Shown here piece after piece: positions 4,104-35,679 of a stretch of 64,000 nt of DNA. The first letter of the stretch is position 1, and each line of letters starts with the position of its first letter. The notes beneath the pieces were generated by a model. That model had not been told where the DNA came from. It searched no databases and saw only the letters and a program-made list of their open reading frames with translations. The DNA comes from Bacillus sp. 491mf (GTDB lineage Bacteria > Bacillota > Bacilli > Bacillales > Bacillaceae_G). The stretch is taken from positions 124,001 to 188,000 of the forward strand of contig NZ_FOLV01000002.1 in assembly GCF_900112415.1 (NCBI RefSeq). Direction: 5' to 3'. A program made the position numbers and the translations under genes.

Positions 4104-4665
4104 AGGTACGACTGCAGTATTGATGCATGATAATATCGATACCGATCAAATTATTCCGAAGCAGTATTTAAAGCGGATTGAAAGAACCGGATTTGGAAAG
4201 TTTTTATTTGATGAATGGCGCTATTTAGATAATCGTCAAGAAAACCCTGACTTTCCATTGAACGCTTCTGAGCAAAATGGCGCTACAATTTTAATTACAG
4301 GAGAAAACTTCGGTTGCGGTTCTTCTCGAGAACATGCCCCGTGGGCTCTTGCGGATTATGGATTTCGCGTAATCATTGCAGGAAGTTTTGCAGATATTTT
4401 TTATATGAATTGTACGAAAAATGGAATACTTCCGATTGTAATGGAAAAGGAGATTCGTAAGCAACTTGCGGCTACTCAGCCGCAGACGATGATAGAAATA
4501 GATTTAGAGAATGAAGTAATAATAACTCCTAAGATGAGCTTTTCTTTTTCTATTGAACGCATGTGGAAAGAAAAATTGCTAAGTGGTTTAGATGATATTG
4601 GGGTTACACTTCAGTATGAGAATGCGATTACAGAATATGAGATAAAAATATGTGTGAATGGATAG
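4081..4665 (+). CDS. leuD: 3-isopropylmalate dehydratase small subunit
   Basis: Small subunit of isopropylmalate isomerase, providing the swivelling domain that binds substrate next to the LeuC iron-sulfur cluster. The 194-residue protein has the family motifs [13 protein letters not shown] near the N-terminus and [17 protein letters not shown] near residue 80. It starts inside the end of leuC after AAAGGAG and is the last gene of the leu group. No strong terminator hairpin is visible directly after it. The next feature is the his promoter and attenuator. Confidence 0.97.
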
Positions 4666-4714
4666 AAATACAAAATAAATAACTAATTTTGTAAAAAAAA
4701 TTAAATGAAAATGA

Positions 4715-4743
4715 TTTACTTTCAATTTAATTGGTAGTATACT
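4715..4743 (+). promoter_or_regulatory. Candidate sigma-A promoter of the his operon leader
   Basis: TTTACT (4715-4720) and TATACT (4738-4743) are separated by 17 bases, close to the vegetative consensus. Transcription would begin near 4750, about 20 bases before the leader-peptide start. The assignment is by pattern only. Confidence 0.6.
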
Positions 4744-4772
4744 GACTTAAAACTAAGAGGAGAAAGGGAGTA

Positions 4773-4829
4773 ATGAGAATGTTTACTTTCCAATCAGTCA
4801 TTTTATTTACACAACATCATCATACATAA
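4773..4829 (+). CDS. his operon leader peptide with three consecutive His codons
   Basis: An 18-residue ORF starts ATG AGA ATG and ends with QHHHT then TAA. Three CAT codons lie in a row at 4815-4823, four codons before the stop. It is preceded by a purine-rich ribosome site (AGGAG, then AAGGGAG, 4758-4770), lies just after a good promoter, and is followed at once by overlapping hairpins and an intrinsic terminator ahead of hisZ. This is the layout of a classical amino-acid attenuator leader. No function for the peptide itself is implied; its translation would sense charged tRNA-His. No gene name is assigned because I do not know an established one for Bacillus. Confidence 0.75.
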   Translation: MRMFTFQSVILFTQHHHT

Positions 4830-4937
4830 ACCCTTGAACCTAGCGTGAAAAAACGTGTAGGTACAAGGGTTATTCCTGTTGTACCTACATTCTCCAAAGA
4901 GCTATGTAGGTATTTTTATCTACATAGCTCTTTTTTT
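4829..4937 (+). promoter_or_regulatory. his operon attenuator (alternative hairpin ladder plus terminator)
   Basis: Five segments can pair as neighbours. S1 4829-4842 pairs with S2 4858-4871 (13 of 14 bp, one A-A mismatch). S2' 4856-4866 pairs with S3 4879-4889 (11 bp, perfect). S3' 4882-4890 pairs with S4 4904-4912 (9 bp, perfect). S4' 4896-4909 pairs with S5 4920-4933 (14 bp) and is followed by a U-run to 4937, i.e. the terminator. S1 begins inside the leader-peptide stop codon. Inferred logic: a ribosome stalled at the His codons leaves S1 free, so S1:S2 and S3:S4 form and transcription continues. A ribosome reaching the stop covers S1, so S2:S3 and the terminator form. Confidence 0.75.
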
Positions 4938-5156
4938 CGTTTATAAGCGCTATGTTATGAATGTATGAGTATTGACGAAGATGAACTCGTAGCAAATCTG
5001 TCGGAATATTCCTAATTTTATCGTGTTACAAGGGATAGCTGAGTGTTGAGTTGGAGAAGTTCAAGAAGTTAAAAATGGACATATAAAAGAAGCATAATAG
5101 ACATGTTATCATTGTAGATTTTTTGTATATATGTGCCGAGAAAGTAGGGGGGGGTA
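4938..5156. other. Spacer between his attenuator and hisZ
   Basis: About 220 bases with no gene-like ORF, no repeat copy and no further strong hairpin that I can see. It ends with a run of G residues (GGGGGGGG just before the hisZ start) that provides the ribosome site. Nothing else is supported here. Confidence 0.5.
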
Positions 5157-6422
5157 ATGATGAAAAAATGGAAACGAGCCAATCCGAATGGAACAAGAGA
5201 TTTTTTATTTCAAGAATGTACAATAATGGAAGAAATTGAACAAAGATTAAGACGAACATTTATCGATAGGGGATATGAAGAAATCCGGACACCTATGATT
5301 GAATTTTATGATGTATTTGCATTTCAAAATCGTCCTGTTGATGAGGAAAAAATGTATAAGTTTTTTGATTCTGAAGGACGTATCGTCGTTCTGAGACCAG
5401 ATATGACAATTCCGTTAGCACGTGTAATTGGGACAAAAAAGATGAAAACACCATTTAAATTAACATATAGTGGAAATGTTTTTAGAGCAAATGAATCTTT
5501 AACGGGAAAATATAATGAAATTACACAAACTGGAATTGAAATTATAGGTATTGGTAATATACGTGCGGAAGTTGAGTGTATTGTAAGCACGATTGCAGCT
5601 TTACAATCAGCTGGTATTCAATCATTTAAAATTGAAATTGGCCAAGTGGAGCTCTATAAATCTATTGTGAAAAAATTATCTTTGCGAGAAGAAGATGAAT
5701 ATGCATTGCGAGAGTATATTGAAAGTAAAAACCTTGCTGCTTTGTCCCGCTTTTTACAAGAAAAGCAGTTAGATATGCAAGACGAAACAGTGCGATTATT
5801 ACAAAAGTTGCCTCGTTTATTTGGAGGATTAGAAGTAGTTGAAGAGGCCGAAAAACTTGCTGTGAGTAAAGAAATGAAAAGAGCCATTACGAGAATAAAA
5901 AATATATATGAAAACATTGATCGTCTTGGTTATGGTCAATATATATCTATTGATTTGGGGATGATTCAACATCTTAATTATTATACCGGTGTAATCTTTC
6001 GAGGATATATATGTGATGTTGGAGAAGAGATTGTGAGCGGCGGGAGATATGATGAATTGATTGGGAATTTTGGTGAGTCTTTACCGGCTGTAGGCCTAGC
6101 GATTCAAGTAAATCAAATTGTACGTACTTTACAAGAACGTAAAGAAAATTCATACAAAAAACAAATAGATTCCCTCATATATTATTCGTTAGATATGATT
6201 TCAGAAGCAGAAAAATTACGTATTTTACTTGGGAAAGATGGTATAAAGGTAGAACTGTCCATGTTAGAAAATTTACAAGATACATTTCAATTTGCAAGAG
6301 CACATGATGTGAAAACTGTAATTGATGTATCAGGAGATACTTTAGTTGAATATGTTTGGCAAGGTAAATGGATCATGCAGAAAAAAGGAGAATCCTCATG
6401 CGTAGCATTCAAATTGCGTTAA
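5157..6422 (+). CDS. hisZ: ATP phosphoribosyltransferase regulatory subunit
   Basis: HisZ is a histidyl-tRNA-synthetase-like protein with no aminoacylation role. It forms a hetero-octamer with short-form HisG and is needed for its activity and histidine feedback. The 421-residue protein begins with the HisRS-like [10 protein letters not shown], has the class II core motif [13 protein letters not shown] near residue 80, and [12 protein letters not shown] near residue 270. It lacks the anticodon-binding domain of true HisRS. The start is the first of two adjacent ATG codons after a long G-run. It opens the his operon, overlapping hisG by 25 bases, as expected for partner subunits. Confidence 0.95.
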
Positions 6423-7033
6423 CGAAAGGGAGATTAGAAAAATATGCGATTTCGTTATTCGAACGAATCGGCATGGATTGCTCAGAGCTAAAGGATAAAG
6501 GAAGGAAGCTTGTATTTCAAAGTAAAAACTCACAAGTTTCATTCATTCTTGTAAAAGCAGTTGATGTCGTAACATATGTCGAGCATGGTATCGCGGATAT
6601 TGGTGTTGTTGGGAAAGATATTTTGCTTGAATATGAAAACGATGTATATGAAATGATTGATTTAGGGGTAGGACGTTGTAGATTTTGCGTTGCTTCCGTT
6701 TCGTCGTATAGTCCAAACGGTTATAACAAAAAGAGGATTGCAACAAAGTATCCGAATATTACTTCTGCATATTTCCGTAAGAAGGGAGAAGATGTAGAGA
6801 TTATTAAAATAGAAGGTTCTGTAGAGATTGCCCCTCTGTTAGGATTAGCAGATGCAATCGTTGATATTGTAGAAACGGGACAAACGTTGAAAGAAAATGG
6901 ATTACTAGTGTTTGAAGAAATTTGTGACATTTCAGCACGTTTAATTGTAAACAAAGCATCTTTAAAAATGAAAAAAGACGAAATATTCAATATTATAAAT
7001 AAAATGGAAGGTGTTCTAGTAGAAAAGAAATAA
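6398..7033 (+). CDS. hisG: ATP phosphoribosyltransferase, short form
   Basis: First committed enzyme of histidine synthesis, joining ATP and PRPP. At 211 residues it is the short form lacking the C-terminal ACT-like regulatory domain, so it depends on HisZ, encoded immediately upstream. The protein starts [17 protein letters not shown] and contains the PRPP-binding region [23 protein letters not shown] at 6398 follows AAAAAAGGAG by 7 bases; the earlier in-frame ATG at 6368 lies in hisZ coding sequence without a ribosome site. Confidence 0.96.
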
Positions 7034-7046
7034 TAGGAGGATAGAT

Positions 7047-8339
7047 ATGGGAATTATATATGAGGATTATTCAAATATTTTATGGAAGGTAAAACAACTA
7101 AGAGAACAGGCTAATACAATAGAAGAAAAAATACAACAAGATGTAAGGGAAATTGTCGTAAATGTAAAAGAAAAGAAAGATGATGCGCTATTTTCGTATA
7201 CGAAGGCTTTTGACAAAGTAGAGTTGACCCAATTTCAAGTTTCGGAAGAAGAACTAGAGTTAGCTTATCAAAGTGTTGAACCAGCATTTTTAGCAGCATT
7301 GGAAGAAGCAAAGAAGAATATCATTTCCTATCACGAAAAGCAAAAAAGACAAGCTTTTATTGATACAGAGAAAGAAGGGATTATTCGCGGGCAGCTTGTT
7401 CGGCCATTGCAAACTGTTGGTGTATATGTACCAGGAGGAACGGCAGCGTATCCATCATCAGTGCTCATGAATGTCTTACCAGCAAAAATTGCGGGCGTCA
7501 ATAAGATTGTCATGGTAACACCGCCGAATTGTGAAGGCGTAGATCCACATATTTTAGCTGCGGCAAAAGTTGCTGGAGTTGATGAGGTATATACAGTAGG
7601 GGGAGCACAAGCAATTGCTGCGTTAGCATACGGGACGGAATCGATTCCGTGTGTTGATAAGATTGTAGGACCAGGAAATATATATGTTGCATTAGCGAAG
7701 CGAGAAGTATTTGGTTCTGTTCATATCGATATGATTGCTGGTCCGTCTGAAATTGTTGTTATTTCTGATGAAACGGGAAATGCAGCGTATATTGCTGCTG
7801 ATTTATTATCGCAAGCAGAACACGATGTACAGGCAACTGCTATTTGTATCACAACTAGTTTAGAATTAGCACAGAAAGTGAATAGAGAAATAGAAAAACA
7901 ATTGATGAGCCTTCCGAGAAGCGAAATAGCTCGTGAATCCATTAATAGAAACGGAGCGATTCTTGTTGCAGATTCATTGGAACAAGCATTTCAGCTCTCA
8001 AATGAAATTGCTCCGGAACATCTAGAGTTACATGTAAAAGAACCGATGACCGCTCTTCCGTATATTCAACATGCAGGCTCTATCTTTTTAGGCCCGTATG
8101 CTCCGGAACCATTAGGTGATTATATGGCAGGTCCGAATCACGTGTTACCAACGAGTGGAACAGCAAGGTTTTTTTCTCCATTATCTGTTGATGATTTTGT
8201 GAAAAAATCGAGTTTTTTATTTTATACAAAAGAGGCTCTTGGAAGATTGCAACAACATATTGTCAATCTAGCAGAAAAAGAAGGATTACAAGCTCATGCA
8301 AGAGCAATTGAAATTCGCTTTGAAGGAGGGGAAAAGTAA
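7047..8339 (+). CDS. hisD: Histidinol dehydrogenase
   Basis: Zinc enzyme that oxidises histidinol to histidine in two NAD-dependent steps, the end of the pathway. The 430-residue protein has the normal length and motifs: [45 protein letters not shown], the zinc-site region QAEHDVQAT, and EHLELH near residue 330. AGGAGG precedes the ATG. The TAA stop overlaps the hisB ATG by one base. Confidence 0.97.
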
Positions 8340-8923
8340 TGCGCGCTGCCAAACAAACGAGAAGTACGACGGAAACAAAAATTTCTGTAGCACTGCAATT
8401 AGATGATAATCAAGAAGTTTCAATTCAAACGGGAGTTGGTTTTTTTGATCATATGTTGACATTATTTGCAAGGCACGGCCGCTTCGGGTTGCAGATTGAA
8501 GCTGATGGCGATGTGTATATTGATGCTCATCATACGGTAGAAGATGTTGGCATTGTTCTTGGAAACTGTTTAAAAGAAGCGCTTGGTGATAAAGCAGGAA
8601 TTAATCGTTACGGCACAGCCTATGTACCGATGGACGAAGCGTTAGGATTTGTTACTGTTGATATAAGTGGAAGGTCCTACCTCGTGTTTGACGGTGAATT
8701 TACAAATCCAAAATTGGGTGATTTTGACACGGAGCTAGCTGAAGAATTTTTTCGCGCGGTAGCTCATGCAGCAAACATAACTTTACATGCACGAGTTATA
8801 TATGGAAGTAATACGCATCACAAAATTGAAGCACTTTTTAAAGCGTTTGGACGTGCACTACGTGATGCAACCGAAAAAAACGAAAAAATTATAGGGGTAA
8901 ATTCCACGAAAGGACTGTTGTAA
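8339..8923 (+). CDS. hisB: Imidazoleglycerol-phosphate dehydratase
   Basis: Manganese enzyme that dehydrates imidazoleglycerol phosphate. The 194-residue protein is the monofunctional type, without the N-terminal histidinol-phosphatase domain of enterobacterial HisB; that reaction is assigned to the PHP-type HisJ at the end of this operon. Metal-binding motifs are visible: [27 protein letters not shown] and [15 protein letters not shown]. It overlaps the hisD stop by one base and is followed two bases later by hisH. Confidence 0.97.
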
Positions 8924-8924
8924 T

Positions 8925-9554
8925 ATGATTGCGATTGTAGATTATGGAATGGGCAACATTCGCAGCGTAGAGCAAGCGTTAAGACATATTGGAGCAGAGT
9001 ATATTGTAACAGGTGAAGCAGAAGCATTTCTAAATAGCGACGGCGTTATTTTGCCGGGGGTTGGTGCGTTTCCAAGGGCGATGCGTTGTTTAGAAGAGAA
9101 AGGACTAATTTCTGTTTTGAAGCAAGTCGCGATTGCAGGAAAACCGCTATTTGGAATTTGTTTAGGGATGCAGCTATTATTTGAAGGAAGTGAAGAGATT
9201 GAAAGAACGAAAGGGTTAGGGCTGCTTCCAGGAACGGTAAAGAAACTAGATGTACCATATAAAATTCCTCATATGGGATGGAATAAGTTGGAGAAGAAAA
9301 AGGAACATCCTTTATGGAATAAAATAGAGGATGGTGCTTTCGTCTATTATGTTCATTCTTATTATGCACAATGTCCGAGTGACGTTGTAGTAGGTGCTAG
9401 TGATTATGGTGTTCCCGTACCGGGAATTGTTTCAAAAGGAAATGTATTTGGGGCTCAGTTCCATCCTGAAAAAAGTGGTGAAATAGGAATTCAAATATTA
9501 CGAAATTTTAAGGAGGTTATAGAAACATGGAAATCTTCCCAGCTATTGATTTAA
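8925..9554 (+). CDS. hisH: Imidazole glycerol phosphate synthase, glutaminase subunit
   Basis: Class I glutamine amidotransferase subunit that supplies ammonia to HisF. The 209-residue protein has the nucleophile elbow GICLGMQ with Cys79 and the His-Glu part of the triad in FHPEKSGE near residue 180. Its end overlaps hisA by 28 bases. HisH and HisF act as a heterodimer; hisA lies between their genes in the usual Bacillus order. Confidence 0.96.
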
Positions 9555-10246
9555 AAAATGGCCGCTGCGTTCGTTTGTATCAAGGACAATTTCAACAAGA
9601 AACAGTAATGAATGAAAACCCAGTTGCCCAAGCATTACTATTTGAACAACTTGGTGCACGTGTACTGCACATTGTCGATTTGGACGGAGCTGTTGCTGGT
9701 CGTTCAGAGAATTTGTCTGTCATTGAAGATATTTGCAAAGCAGTGCGAATTCCAGTGCAAGTAGGGGGCGGGATTCGCTTGGTTGCTGCAATTGAAACAC
9801 TGTTATCAGTTGGAGTAATGAAAGTAATTCTTGGAACAGCAGCATTGTATGATCGTTCATTTGTAGAAGAGGCAGTTCGATTATATGGCGATAAAATTAT
9901 TATAGGAATTGATGCGAAAAATGGCTATGTAGCAACGCGAGGATGGCTAGATGTGTCTGAAACGTCTTATATACAACTCGCAAAGGAAATGGAGAAAATA
10001 GGTGTACAGACGCTTATTTTTACTGATATTTCTAGAGATGGAACACTTGCAGGTCCAAATTTCGAACAATTACAAAAATTGCAAGATGAAGTATCGATTC
10101 AAATTGTTGCTTCCGGCGGTGTGAGTTTGCTTGCTGATGTTGAGAAGTTACAGGATATGAACTTATATGGCGTTATTATTGGGAAAGCATTATATGATAA
10201 AAAAGTTATGTTAGAAGAAGCATTGCAGGTGACAGGCATATGCTAA
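9527..10246 (+). CDS. hisA: Phosphoribosylformimino-5-aminoimidazole carboxamide ribotide isomerase
   Basis: A beta-alpha barrel isomerase (Amadori rearrangement) of the histidine pathway. The 239-residue protein starts [20 protein letters not shown] with the catalytic Asp in AIDLKNG, has QVGGGIR in the first half and [14 protein letters not shown] with the second catalytic Asp, and ends with the phosphate-binding IVASGGV and GVIIGKALY stretches. AAGGAGG precedes the ATG, which lies within hisH. It overlaps hisF by 7 bases. Confidence 0.96.
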
Positions 10247-10998
10247 CAAAGCGAATTATTCCATGTTTGGATGTGAAAAATGGTCGTGTTGTAAAAGGAA
10301 TAAATTTTGCCTTGTTACAAGATGTTGGTGATCCTGTTGCAATTGCCGCAGTATACAATCAAGCAGGTGCAGATGAACTTGTGTTTTTAGATATTACAGC
10401 AACGTATGAAGAACGAAAAACAATGATTGATGTTGTAGAACGTACAGCAAATCAAGTATTTATTCCTCTAACCGTTGGAGGTGGAATCTCGTCTGTCCAA
10501 GATATGTATGCATTACTTCGAGCAGGTGCCGATAAAGTTTCATTAAATTCAGCGGCAGTACGAAGACCAGAATTAATACAAGAAGGAGCAGAGCAATTTG
10601 GTTCTCAATGTATAGTCGTTGCAATTGATGCAAGAAAGGTCGAAGAAAACAAGTGGAATGTATATGTAAATGGAGGCCGCAATGATACAGGAATAGATGT
10701 AATCGAATGGGCAAAACGCGTGGAAAGTTTAGGCGCCGGGGAATTACTTTTAACGAGTATGGATGCAGATGGGACGAAAGATGGCTATGATTTACTTTTA
10801 ACAGAAACAGTTTCAAAAGCAGTTGGTATTCCGGTAATTGCTTCGGGTGGATGCGGGGCAATTGAACATATTGCAGAAGTTTTTCAGCAAACATCAGCAA
10901 ATGCAGCGTTAGCGGCTTCTATTTTTCATTACGGCATGGCAACCATTCAAGAAACGAAGCAAAAGTTACAAGAAGCGCAAATTGAGGTGAGATTGTGA
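10240..10998 (+). CDS. hisF: Imidazole glycerol phosphate synthase, cyclase subunit
   Basis: Beta-alpha barrel cyclase that uses ammonia from HisH to form imidazoleglycerol phosphate and AICAR. The 252-residue protein starts [20 protein letters not shown], has PLTVGGGI, then [19 protein letters not shown] with the second catalytic Asp, and VIASGGCG. It is the same length as other HisF proteins. Its TGA stop overlaps the GTG start of hisI. Confidence 0.97.
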
Positions 10999-11300
10999 AG
11001 CCAGATTTTTCAAAAGGATTATTGCCAGCTATTGTGATAGAAGAAGGGACAAAAGAAGTGTTAATGCTAGCTTATATGAATGAAGAAGCGTATGAAAAAA
11101 CATTAGACACAAAAATGACCTGGTTTTATTCTCGTTCACGAAGCGGTTTGTGGAATAAGGGAGAAACATCAGGACATTTCCAACGTGTGAAATCATTATA
11201 TTTAGATTGCGATCAAGATTCTATTATGGTAGTTGTCCAGCAAGTAGGGGTAGCTTGCCATACAGGAGAAAAGTCATGTTTTCATAATAAGGTGTTATAG
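10995..11300 (+). CDS. hisI: Phosphoribosyl-AMP cyclohydrolase
   Basis: Opens the purine ring of PR-AMP. The 101-residue stand-alone enzyme starts with GTG overlapping the hisF stop (GTGA). It contains [20 protein letters not shown] and the zinc/magnesium-site region LDCDQDS, followed by the two cysteines in [10 protein letters not shown]. The HisE activity is on a separate downstream gene, not fused as in many bacteria. Confidence 0.96.
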
Positions 11301-11312
11301 GGGGAAAAGGAA

Positions 11313-11636
11313 ATGAGCGATGCGTTGCAACAGTTATATGAAACACTTCTACAGCGAAAAGAGAATCCTATTTCTGAGTCGTATACAAATTACTTATTTA
11401 CAAAAGGTGAAGACAAAATATTAAAGAAATTAGGAGAAGAATGTACTGAAATTGTAATTGCAGTGAAAAATGATGAGAAAGACGAGCTTATAAAAGAAAT
11501 TGCTGATTTTACGTATCATTGCTTAGTGTTACTAGTAGAAAAAAATGTCTCATTACAAGAGATAGTAGAAGAATTAAATAAACGCCAAGGACAATTGTCA
11601 AGAGTGGGCGAAAGAAAAGAAATTGATACATTATAG
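11313..11636 (+). CDS. hisE: Phosphoribosyl-ATP pyrophosphatase
   Basis: MazG-like helical pyrophosphatase that removes PPi from PR-ATP. The 107-residue protein has the family core [19 protein letters not shown] and the acidic helix [13 protein letters not shown] that binds magnesium. It stands 12 bases after hisI with GGGGGAAAAGG upstream. Having separate hisI and hisE genes is normal in this genus as far as I recall. Confidence 0.95.
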
Positions 11637-11648
11637 GAGGGGAGAAAG

Positions 11649-12668
11649 ATGAGAGTAGATTATCACCTTCACTTAGAAGAAGGGCCGTATTCAATGCGGT
11701 GGTTATCACGCACAAATGAAGCGCTCGAGTATTTTGCACCGATTGAGGAAGAGAAACATTCAATGGAATGGATCTTAAAGATAGGGGAACGTTTGCAAAA
11801 GCGGGTAAAGGAAGGTGCGTTTTCACAGGAGTGGATTGATTTATACTTAGAGGAAGCAGTGCGCAAAGGAATACGGGAAGTTGGAATCGTTGACCACTTA
11901 TATCGTTTTTCTGAAGCGAAAGAATACTATGAGCGCTATGTCGATATTAGTGATTCTGAACTTGGACATCTGCAAAAAGAATGGCTAGATCAAGTAAGAG
12001 TAGAGTCGATTGGAAACTTTACGAAAGCAATTGAAGATGCGAAAGAAAGATGGAAAAAACGAGGCGTGACATTACGCCTTGGGATAGAAGCAGATTATTT
12101 CATTGGCGGGGAAGAAGAACTGTCACAGTTATTAACGTTAGGGAATTGGGATTATGTGATTGGTTCTGTTCATTTTATTAATGGATGGGGATTTGATAAT
12201 CCGGATACAGACAATTATTTTAGACAACACGATTTACGTATGTTATATCAGACATTTTTTCAAACGTTAGAAAAAGCAATACGTTCTGGCTTATTTGATA
12301 TTGTTGCACATTTAGATAATATAAAAGTGTTTAATTATCGCTTAGATGAAAATGAACAATTACCGTATTATGAGAAAATTGCCCAGGCTTTAATCGAAAC
12401 AAATACAGCTACGGAAGTGAATGCTGGTTTATATTATCGATACCCTGTAAGAGAAATGTGTCCAAGCCCTTTGTTTCTACAGCGCTTAGTACATTATGGT
12501 GTTCCGATTACAATTTCGTCAGATGCACATTTCCCGAATGATTTAGGAAGTTACGTAAAAGAAAATATAGAAACACTTCGTAATCATGGTGTAACGCACA
12601 TTGCAACATTTGAAAAACGAATCCGAAACATGAAATCGATTGAATATGTAAAAGAGAATGCATTGTGA
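11649..12668 (+). CDS. hisJ: Histidinol-phosphatase, PHP family
   Basis: Dephosphorylates histidinol phosphate, completing the set of histidine enzymes in this operon. The 339-residue protein belongs to the PHP family: metal ligands are visible in DYHLHLEEGP (residues 4-13), EVGIVDHLYR near residue 78, GIEADYF near 142, GSVHF near 174 and SSDAHFPNDLG near 295. AGGAGGGGAG precedes the ATG, 12 bases after hisE. No strong terminator follows; a remnant of repeat family A is found instead. Confidence 0.93.
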   Translation: MRVDYHLHLEEGPYSMRWLSRTNEALEYFAPIEEEKHSMEWILKIGERLQKRVKEGAFSQEWIDLYLEEAVRKGIREVGIVDHLYRFSEAKEYYERYVDISDSELGHLQKEWLDQVRVESIGNFTKAIEDAKERWKKRGVTLRLGIEADYFIGGEEELSQLLTLGNWDYVIGSVHFINGWGFDNPDTDNYFRQHDLRMLYQTFFQTLEKAIRSGLFDIVAHLDNIKVFNYRLDENEQLPYYEKIAQALIETNTATEVNAGLYYRYPVREMCPSPLFLQRLVHYGVPITISSDAHFPNDLGSYVKENIETLRNHGVTHIATFEKRIRNMKSIEYVKENAL

Positions 12669-17996: not shown

Positions 17997-18182
17997 CACT
18001 CAAAGGTAGAGGCCGCGATAATCAAGAGTAAGCTATAGGAAATATAGTGGGATTCATGATTATAGTCTGAAAGGGATTATCGCCGAAATATATGAATAGC
18101 CACTTTATTCATATATTGGGACTGCATTGAATAAATGTAGTACTGTCATAAGTTTTTGACTTATGGAGAGCTATTTGGAGAT
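17997..18182 (+). ncRNA. Lysine riboswitch (L-box)
   Basis: The conserved L-box blocks appear in order: AGAGGCCGCG, ATCAAGAGTA, CTGAAAGGGATTATCGCCGAA, GGACTGCATTGAATAAATGT, and GACTTATGGAGAGCTAT. From memory this follows the B. subtilis lysC aptamer closely. With lysine bound, the downstream terminator should form. Controlled gene: lysA. Confidence 0.93.
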
Positions 18183-20022: not shown

Positions 20023-20131
20023 TTCTTATCAAGAGCGGCGGAGGGAACTGGCCCGAAGAAGCCCGGCAACCTACTTTATAAAAGTAAGGTGCTACTTCCA
20101 GCAAAATGGAATCCATTTTGGAAGATAAGGT
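20023..20131 (+). ncRNA. SAM-I riboswitch (S-box) ahead of yezD-cysH
   Basis: Conserved S-box elements are present: CTTATCAAGAGCGGCGGAGGG, ACTGGCCCGAAGAAGCCCGGCAACC, AAGGTGCTACTTCCAGC and the closing GATAAG. The P1 arms are CTTATC and GATAAG. A TATAAT -10 lies at 20013-20018, with no convincing -35. With SAM bound, the terminator just downstream should form and reduce sulfate-assimilation genes. Confidence 0.95.
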
Positions 20132-27964: not shown

Positions 27965-27987
27965 CACAATTAACTTCAATACATGAA

Positions 27988-28250
27988 ATCGATGAGCAAG
28001 AAGAGTATGTATATTTGAGACGTTCAGAGAGCTGGGAAAAGGTGTGAGCCCGGTACGATAAAATATACAGAATGGGCTTGCGAGAGGTATGTTGAACGAA
28101 TAGTAGGCAACCCGGGTTCCGCCGTTAAAAGGATAAGGTATCGGATATATTCCTGTACCTGAAAAGTGGGATAACTTATCCAATTGAGGTGGTACCACGG
28201 TATTATAATATCGTCCTCTACATGCATAATAGCATGTAGAGGACTTTTTT
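27988..28250 (+). ncRNA. T-box leader with UGG (Trp) specifier
   Basis: T-box hallmarks: Stem I with AGAGAGCTGGG and GGTGTGAGCCCG, the T-box core GAGGTGGTACCACGG (28186-28200), and a terminator of 13 bp (28213-28225 with 28232-28244) followed by six T. In Stem I, GCAAG (27996-28000) pairs with CTTGC (28077-28081), and TGTATATTT (28008-28016) pairs with AAATATACA (28061-28069). This leaves AAGAGTA opposite GAATGGG, so the specifier codon is TGG at 28073-28075, read by tRNA-Trp. Uncharged tRNA-Trp should turn on the transporter gene downstream. Confidence 0.88.
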
Positions 28251-28332: not shown

Positions 28333-29676
28333 ATGAAAGAAACACAGCAATGGACGTCAAAAATTGGTTTTGTACTCGCAGCAGCCGGGGCAGCAGTAGG
28401 GCTTGGAGCGATTTGGAAATTCCCGTATGTTGCCGGGAATAGTGGAGGAGGAGCCTTTTTCCTTGTCTTTTTACTCATGACAATATTTATTGGTATGCCG
28501 CTTTTAGTGGCGGAATTTGTGATTGGCCGCAGTACGCAAAAAGAAGCGGTGACAGCTTATAAAGTATTAGTGCCAAATAGTAAACTATATCCATGGATTG
28601 GTCGTATGGGAGTCGTGACTTGTTTTAGCGTTTTATCATTTTATAGTGTTGTGGGAGGATGGATTTTACTTTATTTGTTTTATAGTGTAACAGGTGGATT
28701 ATGGGGGAATGGTGCTGATTATGCAAAGTTATTTGGTGAAACTATCTCCAATCCAATCAGTGCCATTGGAGCACAATTTATTTTTATGCTTTGTACCATT
28801 TTTATCGTAAGTAAAGGTGTAGAAAAAGGAATTGAAAAAGCAAGTAAATATATGATGCCGCTATTATTTGTTTTGTTTCTTGCCATTATTGTTCGTTCTC
28901 TTACATTAGATGGGGCGTGGAAAGGTGTCGAATTTTTCTTAAAACCTGATTTCTCAAAGTTAACAGCGAAAACAATTTTATATGCGATGGGGCAATCGTT
29001 CTTTTCGCTTACGGTTGGAGCTTCGGTTATGGTCACATATAGTTCCTATTTAAAAAAAGAAGAACATTTAGCAAAATCAGCAACGTCAATTACAAGTTTA
29101 ACAGTCTTTATTACTGTACTTGCAGGACTAGCGATTTTCCCGGCAATTTTTGCGTTAGGCGTTAGTCCGACAGAAGGACCTGGATTATTATTTATCGTTC
29201 TTCCCGCTGTATTTGGAGAAATTCCTTTCGGGCATTTTTTCTTTATTTTATTCTTAATTTTGTTTTTCTTCGCAACGATCACCTCGGCAATTTCTATGTT
29301 GGAAATTGTTGTTGCTTCTGTAGCGAAAGAGGATGAAAAGAAGCGCCCATCAGCATCGCTCTTAATTGGATTACTCATTTTCGTAGTTGGAATTCCAGCA
29401 GCATTATCATTTGGAGTTATGAGTGATGTGAAATTATTCGGAAAGACATTTTTTGATTTAGTGGATTTTTCGGTGAGTAACGTATTACTTCCGCTTGGTG
29501 TGTTAGCCATTTCGCTCTTTGTGCCAAATAAAATGAAGAAAGAGCTGTTAATGCAAGAATTAGAAGTGACAGAAACAAGAGGGAAAACGTTATTTAACAT
29601 ATGGTTCTTCTTGCTTCGTTACGTTATTCCGATTACGGTTCTTCTTGTCCTTTTAAACGTTATTGGTGTGCTTTAG
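28333..29676 (+). CDS. Sodium-dependent transporter, NSS family (probable tryptophan uptake)
   Basis: Twelve-helix, 447-residue symporter of the neurotransmitter:sodium symporter family (LeuT/TnaT group). The N-terminus WTSKIGFVLAAAGAAVGLGA forms the first helix with the sodium-site unwound region, followed by IWKFPYVAGNSGGGAF, typical of the family. The T-box upstream carries a Trp codon, so the substrate is inferred to be tryptophan or a precursor. AAGGAGAAGTAAAG precedes the ATG. A symmetrical terminator follows the stop. Confidence 0.92.
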   Translation: MKETQQWTSKIGFVLAAAGAAVGLGAIWKFPYVAGNSGGGAFFLVFLLMTIFIGMPLLVAEFVIGRSTQKEAVTAYKVLVPNSKLYPWIGRMGVVTCFSVLSFYSVVGGWILLYLFYSVTGGLWGNGADYAKLFGETISNPISAIGAQFIFMLCTIFIVSKGVEKGIEKASKYMMPLLFVLFLAIIVRSLTLDGAWKGVEFFLKPDFSKLTAKTILYAMGQSFFSLTVGASVMVTYSSYLKKEEHLAKSATSITSLTVFITVLAGLAIFPAIFALGVSPTEGPGLLFIVLPAVFGEIPFGHFFFILFLILFFFATITSAISMLEIVVASVAKEDEKKRPSASLLIGLLIFVVGIPAALSFGVMSDVKLFGKTFFDLVDFSVSNVLLPLGVLAISLFVPNKMKKELLMQELEVTETRGKTLFNIWFFLLRYVIPITVLLVLLNVIGVL

Positions 29677-34163: not shown

Positions 34164-34273
34164 CCTTCTTATCAAGAGAGGCGGAGGGACTGGCCCTACG
34201 ATGCCTCGGCAGCGGACTCATATTCGAGTGCTGTGCCAAATCCAGCAAGCGATATGCTTGATAGATGAGAAGA
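34164..34273 (+). ncRNA. SAM-I riboswitch (S-box) ahead of the MetT-type transporter
   Basis: P1 arms CTTCTTATC (34165-34173) and GATGAGAAG (34264-34272) enclose AAGAGAGGCGGAGGGACTGG, CCCTACGATGCCTCGGCAGC, and GTGCTGTGCCAAATCCAGCA, the canonical S-box blocks. A terminator follows, so SAM should switch the gene off. Confidence 0.94.
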
Positions 34274-34368: not shown

Positions 34369-35679
34369 TTGGAACAAACAAAAGGAAATGCATGGGCATT
34401 ATTACCACTTGGCATATTTTTAGCATTATTTATTGGTTCTGGTATAATTACAGGGGATTTTTATAAGTTACCAATTCTGGTTGCGATTTTAATTGCAGTT
34501 GCCGCTGCATTAGTAATGAATAGAAAAGAAAATTTTACGACAAAGGTTGAACGTTTTGCTAAAGGTGCTGGCAATCCAGATATCATGATTATGGTATTAA
34601 TTTTTGTATTAGCAGGTGCATTTTCTGAAACGGCAAAAGGCATGGGCGGCGTTGAAGCAACTGTAAACTTAGCGCTTTCTGTTCTGCCGCAAGGATTTTT
34701 AGTTGTTGGGTTGTTTGCTATCGGTGCTTTTATTTCATTAGCAATGGGAACGTCAATGGGGACGATTGCTGCATTGGCGCCAATTGCAGTAGGGATTAGT
34801 GGACAAACGGATATTTCTATGGCACTTGCTATGGCAACGGTTGTTGGCGGTGCGATGTTTGGCGACAATTTATCTTTTATTTCAGACACGACAATTGCAG
34901 CTGTCCGTACACAAGGAACGGAAATGAAAGATAAATTTAAAACAAATTTCTTAATTGTATTACCAGCTGCTATTGTTACGAGCATACTGTTAGTTGTTCT
35001 TACGTTAGGAACTCATACAAATATGACAGCACATGCGTTTAATTGGGTGAAAATTTTACCGTATGCAGGAGTGTTAATTACGGCGCTGCTTGGATATAAC
35101 GTATTAGTTGTATTAACGGGAGGAACGGTGTTAGCTGGTATTATCGGTATGATTGATGGAAGCTTTACACTCGCAAGCTTCTTTAAAAGTGTTACAGTAG
35201 GAATTAATGGAATGATGGAGCTTGTATTATTAGCAATTTTAATCGGTGGAATGGTCGAAATCATTCAATATAACGGCGGTATTCAATATTTAATGAATGT
35301 GCTAACACGCAATATTCGTTCGAAAAAAGGTGCAGAATTTGGAATTGCTGGTCTTGTAAGTATGACAAATATGTGCACAGCAAATAATACAATTTCTATT
35401 ATTTTCACAGGTCCATTAGCAAAGAATGTGGCAGATCAATATCATATTGATCCGAAGAAATCGGCGAGCTTGTTAGATTTATTCTCTTGTAGTGTGCAAG
35501 GATTAATTCCGTACGGTGCACAAATGTTAACGGCGGCAGGATTTGCTTCCCTTTCACCAATTGAATTATTACCGTACTCATTTTATCCAATGTTAGTCGC
35601 TGTTTGCGGAATTATCTCAATTGTCATTAATTTCCCGCGTCTTTCGCCTGAGAAAAAGGAATATCAAAAAACAGCATAA
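34369..35679 (+). CDS. NhaC/MetT-type transporter, probable methionine uptake
   Basis: A 436-residue protein with about eleven membrane helices of the Na+/H+ antiporter NhaC superfamily. Conserved parts include GTSMGTIAALAPIAVGIS, GGAMFGDNLSFISDTTIAA, MTNMCTANNTISI and SCSVQGLIPYGAQ. S-box control points to sulfur amino-acid traffic. The MetT group of this superfamily was proposed as methionine transporters on that basis, so methionine uptake is an inference. The start is TTG at 34369, 8 bases after AGGAGAGG; no in-frame ATG lies near. Confidence 0.85.
   Translation: MEQTKGNAWALLPLGIFLALFIGSGIITGDFYKLPILVAILIAVAAALVMNRKENFTTKVERFAKGAGNPDIMIMVLIFVLAGAFSETAKGMGGVEATVNLALSVLPQGFLVVGLFAIGAFISLAMGTSMGTIAALAPIAVGISGQTDISMALAMATVVGGAMFGDNLSFISDTTIAAVRTQGTEMKDKFKTNFLIVLPAAIVTSILLVVLTLGTHTNMTAHAFNWVKILPYAGVLITALLGYNVLVVLTGGTVLAGIIGMIDGSFTLASFFKSVTVGINGMMELVLLAILIGGMVEIIQYNGGIQYLMNVLTRNIRSKKGAEFGIAGLVSMTNMCTANNTISIIFTGPLAKNVADQYHIDPKKSASLLDLFSCSVQGLIPYGAQMLTAAGFASLSPIELLPYSFYPMLVAVCGIISIVINFPRLSPEKKEYQKTA

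Follow-up and report, generated by a model that had tools for sequence, protein, structure and literature searches.

Control of histidine genes by a leader peptide is known from enterobacteria and has been predicted in bacilli: in the latter, hisZ and hisS* are preceded by a His leader peptide according to Naville and Gautheret (2010; PMC2965389), and for six species of the Bacillus cereus group, all without HisR, Ashniev et al. (2022) described His attenuators in front of the his operon (PMC9413887). These papers already correct one premise of the original prediction for the locus described below, namely, that His leader peptides are the enterobacterial solution. In a literature search on the leader and its wider targets, these two papers were the only relevant ones by titles and beginnings of abstracts; given these reports, the hisZ leader is known in kind, and the wider extension proposed here was not found in that search. 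We analysed such a leader in a 64,000-nucleotide stretch of the Bacillus sp. 491mf genome (hereafter, the window), with the result that the published prediction is confirmed at one more, fairly divergent locus and a quantitative mechanism is added.

The leader region of the his operon

The DeoD protein encoded in the window is identical to chain 2ac7_A, which we take to come from B. cereus, in 225 of 234 positions and shows 91% identity to that of Ectobacillus panaciterrae (G001), which suggests that the window belongs in or near the B. cereus group. The his operon starts with hisZ, and the upstream neighbour of the leader region is a leuD-like ORF that ends at 4665. The features of the region are the following.

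4715..4743, + strand: candidate sigma-A promoter, TTTACT-17-TATACT (9/12 consensus match, not above chance)
4758..4770, + strand: Shine-Dalgarno region, purine-rich, AGGAGAAAGGGAG (read from the sequence)
4815..4823, + strand: putative sensor, CAT CAT CAT, three consecutive His codons (codons 15-17; sequence, conserved columns)
4829..4846, + strand: S1, partner of S2 (pairing, covariation)
4853..4872, + strand: S2, partner of S1 or S3 (pairing, duplex energies)
4870..4875, + strand: TTATTC, at and after the 3' end of S2, hypothetical RNA polymerase pause element (one specified base off TTNTTT)
4879..4891, + strand: S3, partner of S2 or S4 (pairing, covariation)
4896..4913, + strand: S4, partner of S3 (antiterminator) or S5 (terminator) (pairing, masked partition function)
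4917..4940, + strand: S5 and U-run of the intrinsic terminator (17-pair stem followed by a T-run)
5157..6422, + strand: hisZ, first gene of the his operon (ORF; TIGR00443, 341 bits against a cut-off of 271.65)
6368..12668, + strand: hisG, hisD, hisB, hisH, hisA, hisF, hisI, hisE and a PHP-type histidinol phosphatase, hisJ (ORFs; names recognised from translations)

The predicted 18-codon ORF with three CAT codons was found at 4773-4829 on the + strand and encodes the peptide MRMFTFQSVILFTQHHHT; an alternative ATG at 4779 would give 4779-4829, and the sequence AAGGGAG lies 8 nt upstream of this second ATG. The HHH run falls within the three to five consecutive His codons in a short ORF that characterize the His leader-peptide attenuators of bacilli. 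A short ORF with three consecutive His codons arose in 10 of 20,000 dinucleotide shuffles of 4666-5156, and ORFs like that of the leader are present in relatives. As for the predicted promoter with a 17-base spacer, its TTTACT and TATACT elements indeed score 9/12, but such matches are no commoner in the leader region than in shuffles (3 found against 3.3 expected); another promoter-like match lies at 5069-5098, between the terminator and the start of hisZ.

The four helices and the terminator of the original prediction were all borne out, with 13 of 14 pairs formed in S1:S2, 11 of 11 in S2:S3, 9 of 9 in S3:S4 and 14 of 14 in S4:S5 at the positions given there; the terminator stem reaches 17 pairs (4896-4912 with 4917-4933). 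As in the His leader-peptide attenuators of bacilli, an intrinsic terminator (4896-4933 plus T-run) precedes the first his gene, and it is the only one found in 4600-5200, where 0.2 would be expected. The claim that the segments pair solely as neighbours holds in that the neighbour duplexes are the four strongest (S1:S2, -22.0; S2:S3, -17.4; S3:S4, -12.6; S4:S5, -23.8 kcal/mol), but not strictly, since non-neighbour duplexes are also computed to be stable to some degree, the strongest being S2:S5 (-9.5 kcal/mol), with S1:S4 at -7.3 kcal/mol. Folding of the leader RNA (4755-4940) gives z = -7.99.

The HisZ protein of the window scores 730.7 bits against NF008938, below the cut-off of 833, and its best match among 19 genomes in the family of G001 has 69% identity. 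Searches for HisZ returned nothing at 60% identity or more in plasmids and nothing in viral contigs, and the leader was not found in plasmids. Other leader RNAs in the window are a T-box at 27983-28221 (127.5 bits), which precedes a sodium-symporter-like transporter ORF (28333-29676, named by eye); a SAM riboswitch at 34166-34271 preceding an NhaC-like antiporter-family ORF (34369-35679, by eye), which may be a methionine transporter; another SAM riboswitch (20023-20131) ahead of a sulfate-assimilation cluster (genes by eye); and a lysine riboswitch at 17999-18181 ahead of a lysA-like ORF (by eye).

A computed switch dependent on ribosome position

The partition function was computed for the transcript 4755-4916, which ends short of S5, and every base as far as the ribosome edge was held unpaired. 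By convention, the edge lies 15 bases downstream of the first nucleotide of the codon in the P site, which places it at 4827, 4830 and 4833 for His codons 1, 2 and 3, respectively, and at 4839 for the stop codon. The probability that the core of S4 is paired upstream is 0.95-0.99 with the edge at or before 4833 and 0.83 at 4838; it is 0.28 at 4839, 0.12 at 4840 and 0.15-0.29 across 4841-4855, and returns to at least 0.91 once the edge is at or beyond 4858 and S2 itself is covered. The computed flip thus comes as the ribosome moves from the last His codon to the stop codon, which is where the mechanism needs it. A ribosome-position difference as large as that of the window (0.99 versus 0.12) was reached by none of 500 shuffles of 4830-4895, of which 40 reach 0.3 and the maximum is 0.69. 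The dependence of the antiterminator on ribosome position expected of a His leader-peptide attenuator of bacilli was accordingly obtained by computation. The equilibrium fold with S5 present contains the terminator, so that read-through must be a kinetic outcome. In the leader without a ribosome, the probability is 0.99, and therefore the default would be read-through, with termination needing a ribosome at the stop codon.

In the mechanism that we infer from these computations, including stalling, timing and the response to histidine, the attenuator would sense charged tRNA-His via the translating ribosome. When histidine is short, the ribosome would stall at codons 15-17 (His), its leading edge lying near 4827-4833, and leave S1 mostly free, so that S1 could pair with S2 and S3 with S4, and RNA polymerase would pass the terminator into hisZ. 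With ample histidine, the ribosome would come to the stop codon, with the edge near 4839, and mask more than half of S1; S2 would then pair with S3, S4 would be freed for S5, and transcription would stop near 4940. The masked partition function reproduces the logic of the original prediction, in which a stalled ribosome frees S1 and gives read-through and one at the stop codon covers S1 and allows the terminator to form. Direct support here extends to the sequence elements, their conservation, their covariation and the computed switch; together, these elements and the model make it highly probable that the leader is a ribosome-mediated transcription attenuator of the his operon sensing charged tRNA-His.

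Homologous leaders in other genomes

When the leader was searched by blastn in 397 genomes belonging to the order of E. panaciterrae (G001), nine genomes matched, six of them with true leaders; the matches in G264, G016 and G174 are only 22-36 bases long and were not counted. Alignment A3 (seven sequences including the window, six distinct) yielded the covariance model R1; model R2 was built from 28 aligned matches, and alignment A5 contains 28 aligned leaders, of which 24 are distinct. In A4, a stricter threshold eliminated two reverse-strand hairpin matches; L012 and L014, which are the same places as L059 and L051, were omitted. Searched with stricter filters and 8 to 10 candidates scored per genome, such that a genome without a match may still carry a leader, R1 matched 22 of the 397 order genomes and 4 of 15 in the family of G219, and R2 matched 74 of the 397, one of these (G383) by chance, which gives homologous leaders in 73, as well as 19 of 329 genomes drawn from the class, one being G001 again.

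Among the 55 new R2 places in the order, at least three consecutive His codons in a short ORF were present at 53 and at least two at 54, a count that is not independent of the search because R2 includes the His columns, in contrast to the reading frame and the downstream genes, which are independent; 52 of the 55 precede hisS*, a histidyl-tRNA synthetase paralogue. In the 18 new genomes of the class, at least three His codons were found in 15, hisS* behind the leader in six (three by blastp, three by eye) and a short hisZ in two. Matches without a run of at least two His codons in a short ORF were treated as chance, namely, L063 (G299), L064 (G194) and L069 (G115) for R1 and L145 (G383), L100 (G587) and L101 (G666) for R2; G194 and G115 each have a true leader elsewhere in the genome. 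L098 (G539) has no leader ORF by the rule used, although a HisRS-like ORF follows. After removal of three chance matches, the leader set comprises 90 distinct sequences, and an Rfam scan of 18 of these leader loci gave no match at gathering scores.

The His-codon columns are among the most conserved of the leader alignment. The covariation score of A5 is 0.381, against 0.198 +/- 0.012 in shuffled alignments (reached by 0 of 500) and at most 0.152 in slid versions, and 107 cells show changes in both partners, compared with 48 in shuffles (0 of 500), figures that are biased in favour of the structure because A5 was fitted to the structure under test. At the level of pairs, 23 of 32 changed on both sides, a number attained by 38 of 500 shuffles; in S1:S2, 12 of 16 pairs changed on both sides and 87.7% of cells are paired, and a seven-pair S1:S2 helix is present in 87 of the 90 distinct leaders. 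The terminator helix, which is poorly aligned across clades, has 66.9% of cells paired. In A3, the fraction of paired cells is 86.1% for S1:S2 plus S4:S5, 91.4% for S2:S3 and 93.2% for S3:S4 (at most 49.2% in slid versions), and 1, 2 and 7 of 500 shuffles, respectively, score as high; 8, 2 and 2 pairs changed on both sides, as reached by 1, 83 and 49 of 500 shuffles. The covariation support for the alternative helices S2:S3 and S3:S4 is thus real but modest. Examination of relatives for conserved His codons and covarying stems, as proposed along with the original prediction, found both conserved, and the prediction was not refuted by sequence.

The computed switch recurs in most leaders of A5. 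In 23 of 28 rows, moving the ribosome from the first His position to the stop codon lowers the antiterminator probability by more than 0.1, three of the exceptions being flat (L048, L049, L059) and two reversed (L056, L057). From the third His position, such a drop is seen in 19 of 28 rows, and without a ribosome the antiterminator value is above the stop-codon value in 22 of 28. For further places, mostly of the hisS* type and including the chance matches L101 and L145, 66 of 67 were scored with an automatic choice of the terminator arm that is crude and in some rows plainly wrong; stalling exceeded the stop codon in 9 and the reverse held in 27. The His codons and the S1:S2 hairpin are retained in many hisS*-type leaders, the stop codon there often lying within the hairpin, but these leaders have a different terminator and no evident S3:S4 step, and the computed switch is absent from most relatives of the hisS* type. 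The leaders L056, L057, L074-L083 and L103-L148 are mostly of this type, with the stop codon inside S1 in many and the computed ribosome effect absent or reversed. The five-segment mechanism is proposed for the window-type class and not for the hisS*-type leaders.

Target genes and loss of HisR

Apart from hisS*, the leader precedes a short hisZ in ten order genomes without hisR (G006, G007, G009, G010, G011, G012, G014, G015, G016 and G017), in G008, which has hisR, and in G005 and G013, outside the draw. An APC-family amino-acid permease follows the leader in G001, G018 and G041; G018 has no hisD match, so that the leader there precedes a permease in a probable histidine auxotroph. In G041, a genome with hisR, the leader before the permease (L138) is MLSLSLSYRHRHHHSS. 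A transporter that we take to resemble YuiF (Pfam Na_H_antiporter) follows the leader in G003 and G004, and hisD follows it in G055, with two His codons in a row. In E. panaciterrae (L001/G001), a leuD-like gene (by eye) is followed by a plain hairpin-terminator and hisZ with no R1 or R2 match; this leuD-hisZ order without a leader, combined with a leader elsewhere in the same genome, suggests that the module has changed targets.

Several other loci deserve mention. A second His leader of G001, on contig 13 (L066 / L152, MIAKKIQFMTTAHHHF), lies before an alpha/beta hydrolase, and its counterparts in G003 and G004 lie before the YuiF-like transporter; it is possibly an orphaned leader. In G003 and G004, of the genus Ectobacillus, leaders of the window kind (L036, L037) also precede a 151-aa protein with no Pfam or NCBIfam match. 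In G069, a leader with two His codons (L141 / L153, MDIYNPANNSLVQLHHIN) is followed by a HAD-like phosphatase ORF (by eye) and not by hisS*. Shortly before the Ectobacillus hisZ, at 2969-2983 of L001 and also in L002, there is a palindrome, CTTTCGTTTCGAAAG, perhaps a site for another regulator; HisR was discarded as the candidate given that hisR was not found in those genomes.

The YerC/HisR family is represented in 380 of the 397 order genomes and missing in 17. R1 matches were found in 15 of the 17 genomes without hisR versus 7 of the 380 with hisR, two of the seven by chance (Fisher p = 4e-20), and when leaders before the his operon or a transporter only are considered, the counts are 14 of 17 and 3 of 380 (Fisher p = 2e-20), although the genomes of the order are related, so that these counts represent few events. 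R2 matches are present in 15 of the 17 and in 59 of the 380 (one of the 59 by chance), the latter number reflecting the fact that most hisR-bearing genomes with a match have it before hisS*. The two genomes without hisR that have no leader match, G075 and G390, both have hisD. In the relatives G001-G004 and G019, hisR was found in none of the five. Across these genomes, leaders before the his operon or a transporter go with the loss of hisR.

Alternative explanations

The arrangement could in principle be the ordinary intergenic terminator of the upstream leu operon, accompanied by a fortuitous ORF and hairpins, with hisZ transcribed from its own downstream promoter. The leuD-like ORF does end at 4665, the only terminator in 4600-5200 is that at 4896-4933, and a promoter-like match is available at 5069-5098; however, chance hardly accounts for the His-codon ORF and the computed switch, His codons with covarying stems are found again before different histidine-linked genes, and E. 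panaciterrae has a leuD-like gene, a plain hairpin-terminator and hisZ without the leader, all of which makes this explanation very improbable. Still less credence can be given to a leader that senses a factor or tRNA, such as a T-box or a riboswitch, with the His codons incidental. That the window also carries T-box, lysine and SAM leaders speaks for it, but the best Rfam match in 4660-5180 (E = 0.025) covers the terminator alone, with 25.6 bits against a cut-off of 90, and the His-codon columns are among the most conserved. T-box RF00230 has no match in 4660-5180, the sole T-box of the window being that at 27983-28221, and the enterobacterial his leader, RF00514, has none in the window at the gathering threshold and none at E<=10 in 4660-5180. 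The T-box, riboswitch and enterobacterial His leader identities were accordingly dropped for want of a convincing Rfam match.

A third scheme, compatible with the attenuator, is a variant in which an RNA polymerase pause at the S1:S2 hairpin and TTATTC, released by the ribosome, outweighs the competition for S3. NusG-dependent pausing involves the motif -11TTNTTT-6 together with a hairpin placed 11-12 nt before the 3' end (PMC12288461), and TTATTC at 4870-4875 would set the pause at 4880. The constancy of the seven-pair S1:S2 helix fits this variant, as does the presence of TATT after S2 in 13 of 14 chosen representatives and in 49 of the 90 distinct leaders, against 5.5% expected, the latter count resting on an automatic placement that misplaces the S2 end in the hisS* class. 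The match to TTNTTT is imperfect, however, with one specified base off in the window and two in the CTATTC clades; the exact motif occurs there in 1 of 90, and eight short-hisZ loci have CTCTTC. Moreover, many hisS* leaders have these bases paired to the region around the stop codon, which weakens the variant by offering another explanation of their conservation. We regard a dominant role of such a pause as unlikely, albeit less so than the preceding two explanations, and retain attenuation through competition for S3 as the preferred reading.

A possible family of attenuators and its relation to known systems

Comparison of related sequences suggests that this kind of switch is more widespread than described. 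We lean, with some reserve, towards the broader view that the window leader belongs to a large, mobile family of homologous His-codon attenuators (found in the Ectobacillus order and in other genomes of the class and absent from Rfam 15 in the samples scanned) that would control a histidine regulon of hisS*, the his operon, the permease, the YuiF-like transporter and hisD, would have taken over the his operon and transporters after the loss of HisR, and, in the window type, would read through by default and terminate when the ribosome finishes the leader, the reverse of enterobacterial superattenuation. If so, the family could be described as an RNA motif, and a DNA-binding repressor would have been replaced by a translating-ribosome sensor across a clade. 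RNA polymerase in such bacteria is thought to outrun the ribosome, and the family would then offer a system in which to ask how ribosome-timed attenuation works under these circumstances.

The window leader resembles that of PMC2965389 in its short ORF with a stretch of His codons, the premature terminator, the hisZ target and the connection to a hisS* paralogue; unlike the present analysis, the account of the leader in the part of that report considered here does not analyse ribosome position, and a permease, a YuiF-like transporter or hisD is not among the targets it names. With the attenuators of PMC9413887, as presented in the portion used, it shares the his operon, three to five His codons and a terminator with an alternative antiterminator, and HisR is absent also from the relatives G001-G004 and G019; beyond the six species named there, leader-bearing genomes without hisR occur outside the B. 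cereus group. As in the B. subtilis yxjB (tlrB) and bmrC/bmrD leaders, a leader peptide and ribosome stalling would control a terminator, but those leaders, in the passages of the sources relied on, respond to antibiotics and not to an amino acid (PMC6851288, PMC4191407). As in the enterobacterial his leader (RF00514), a stall on the His codons would give read-through. In contrast to that leader, the ribosome would act by leaving S1 free rather than by covering it, and hence an untranslated window leader is predicted to read through. An untranslated enterobacterial leader terminates, and the window leader should thus have the opposite polarity to enterobacterial superattenuation.
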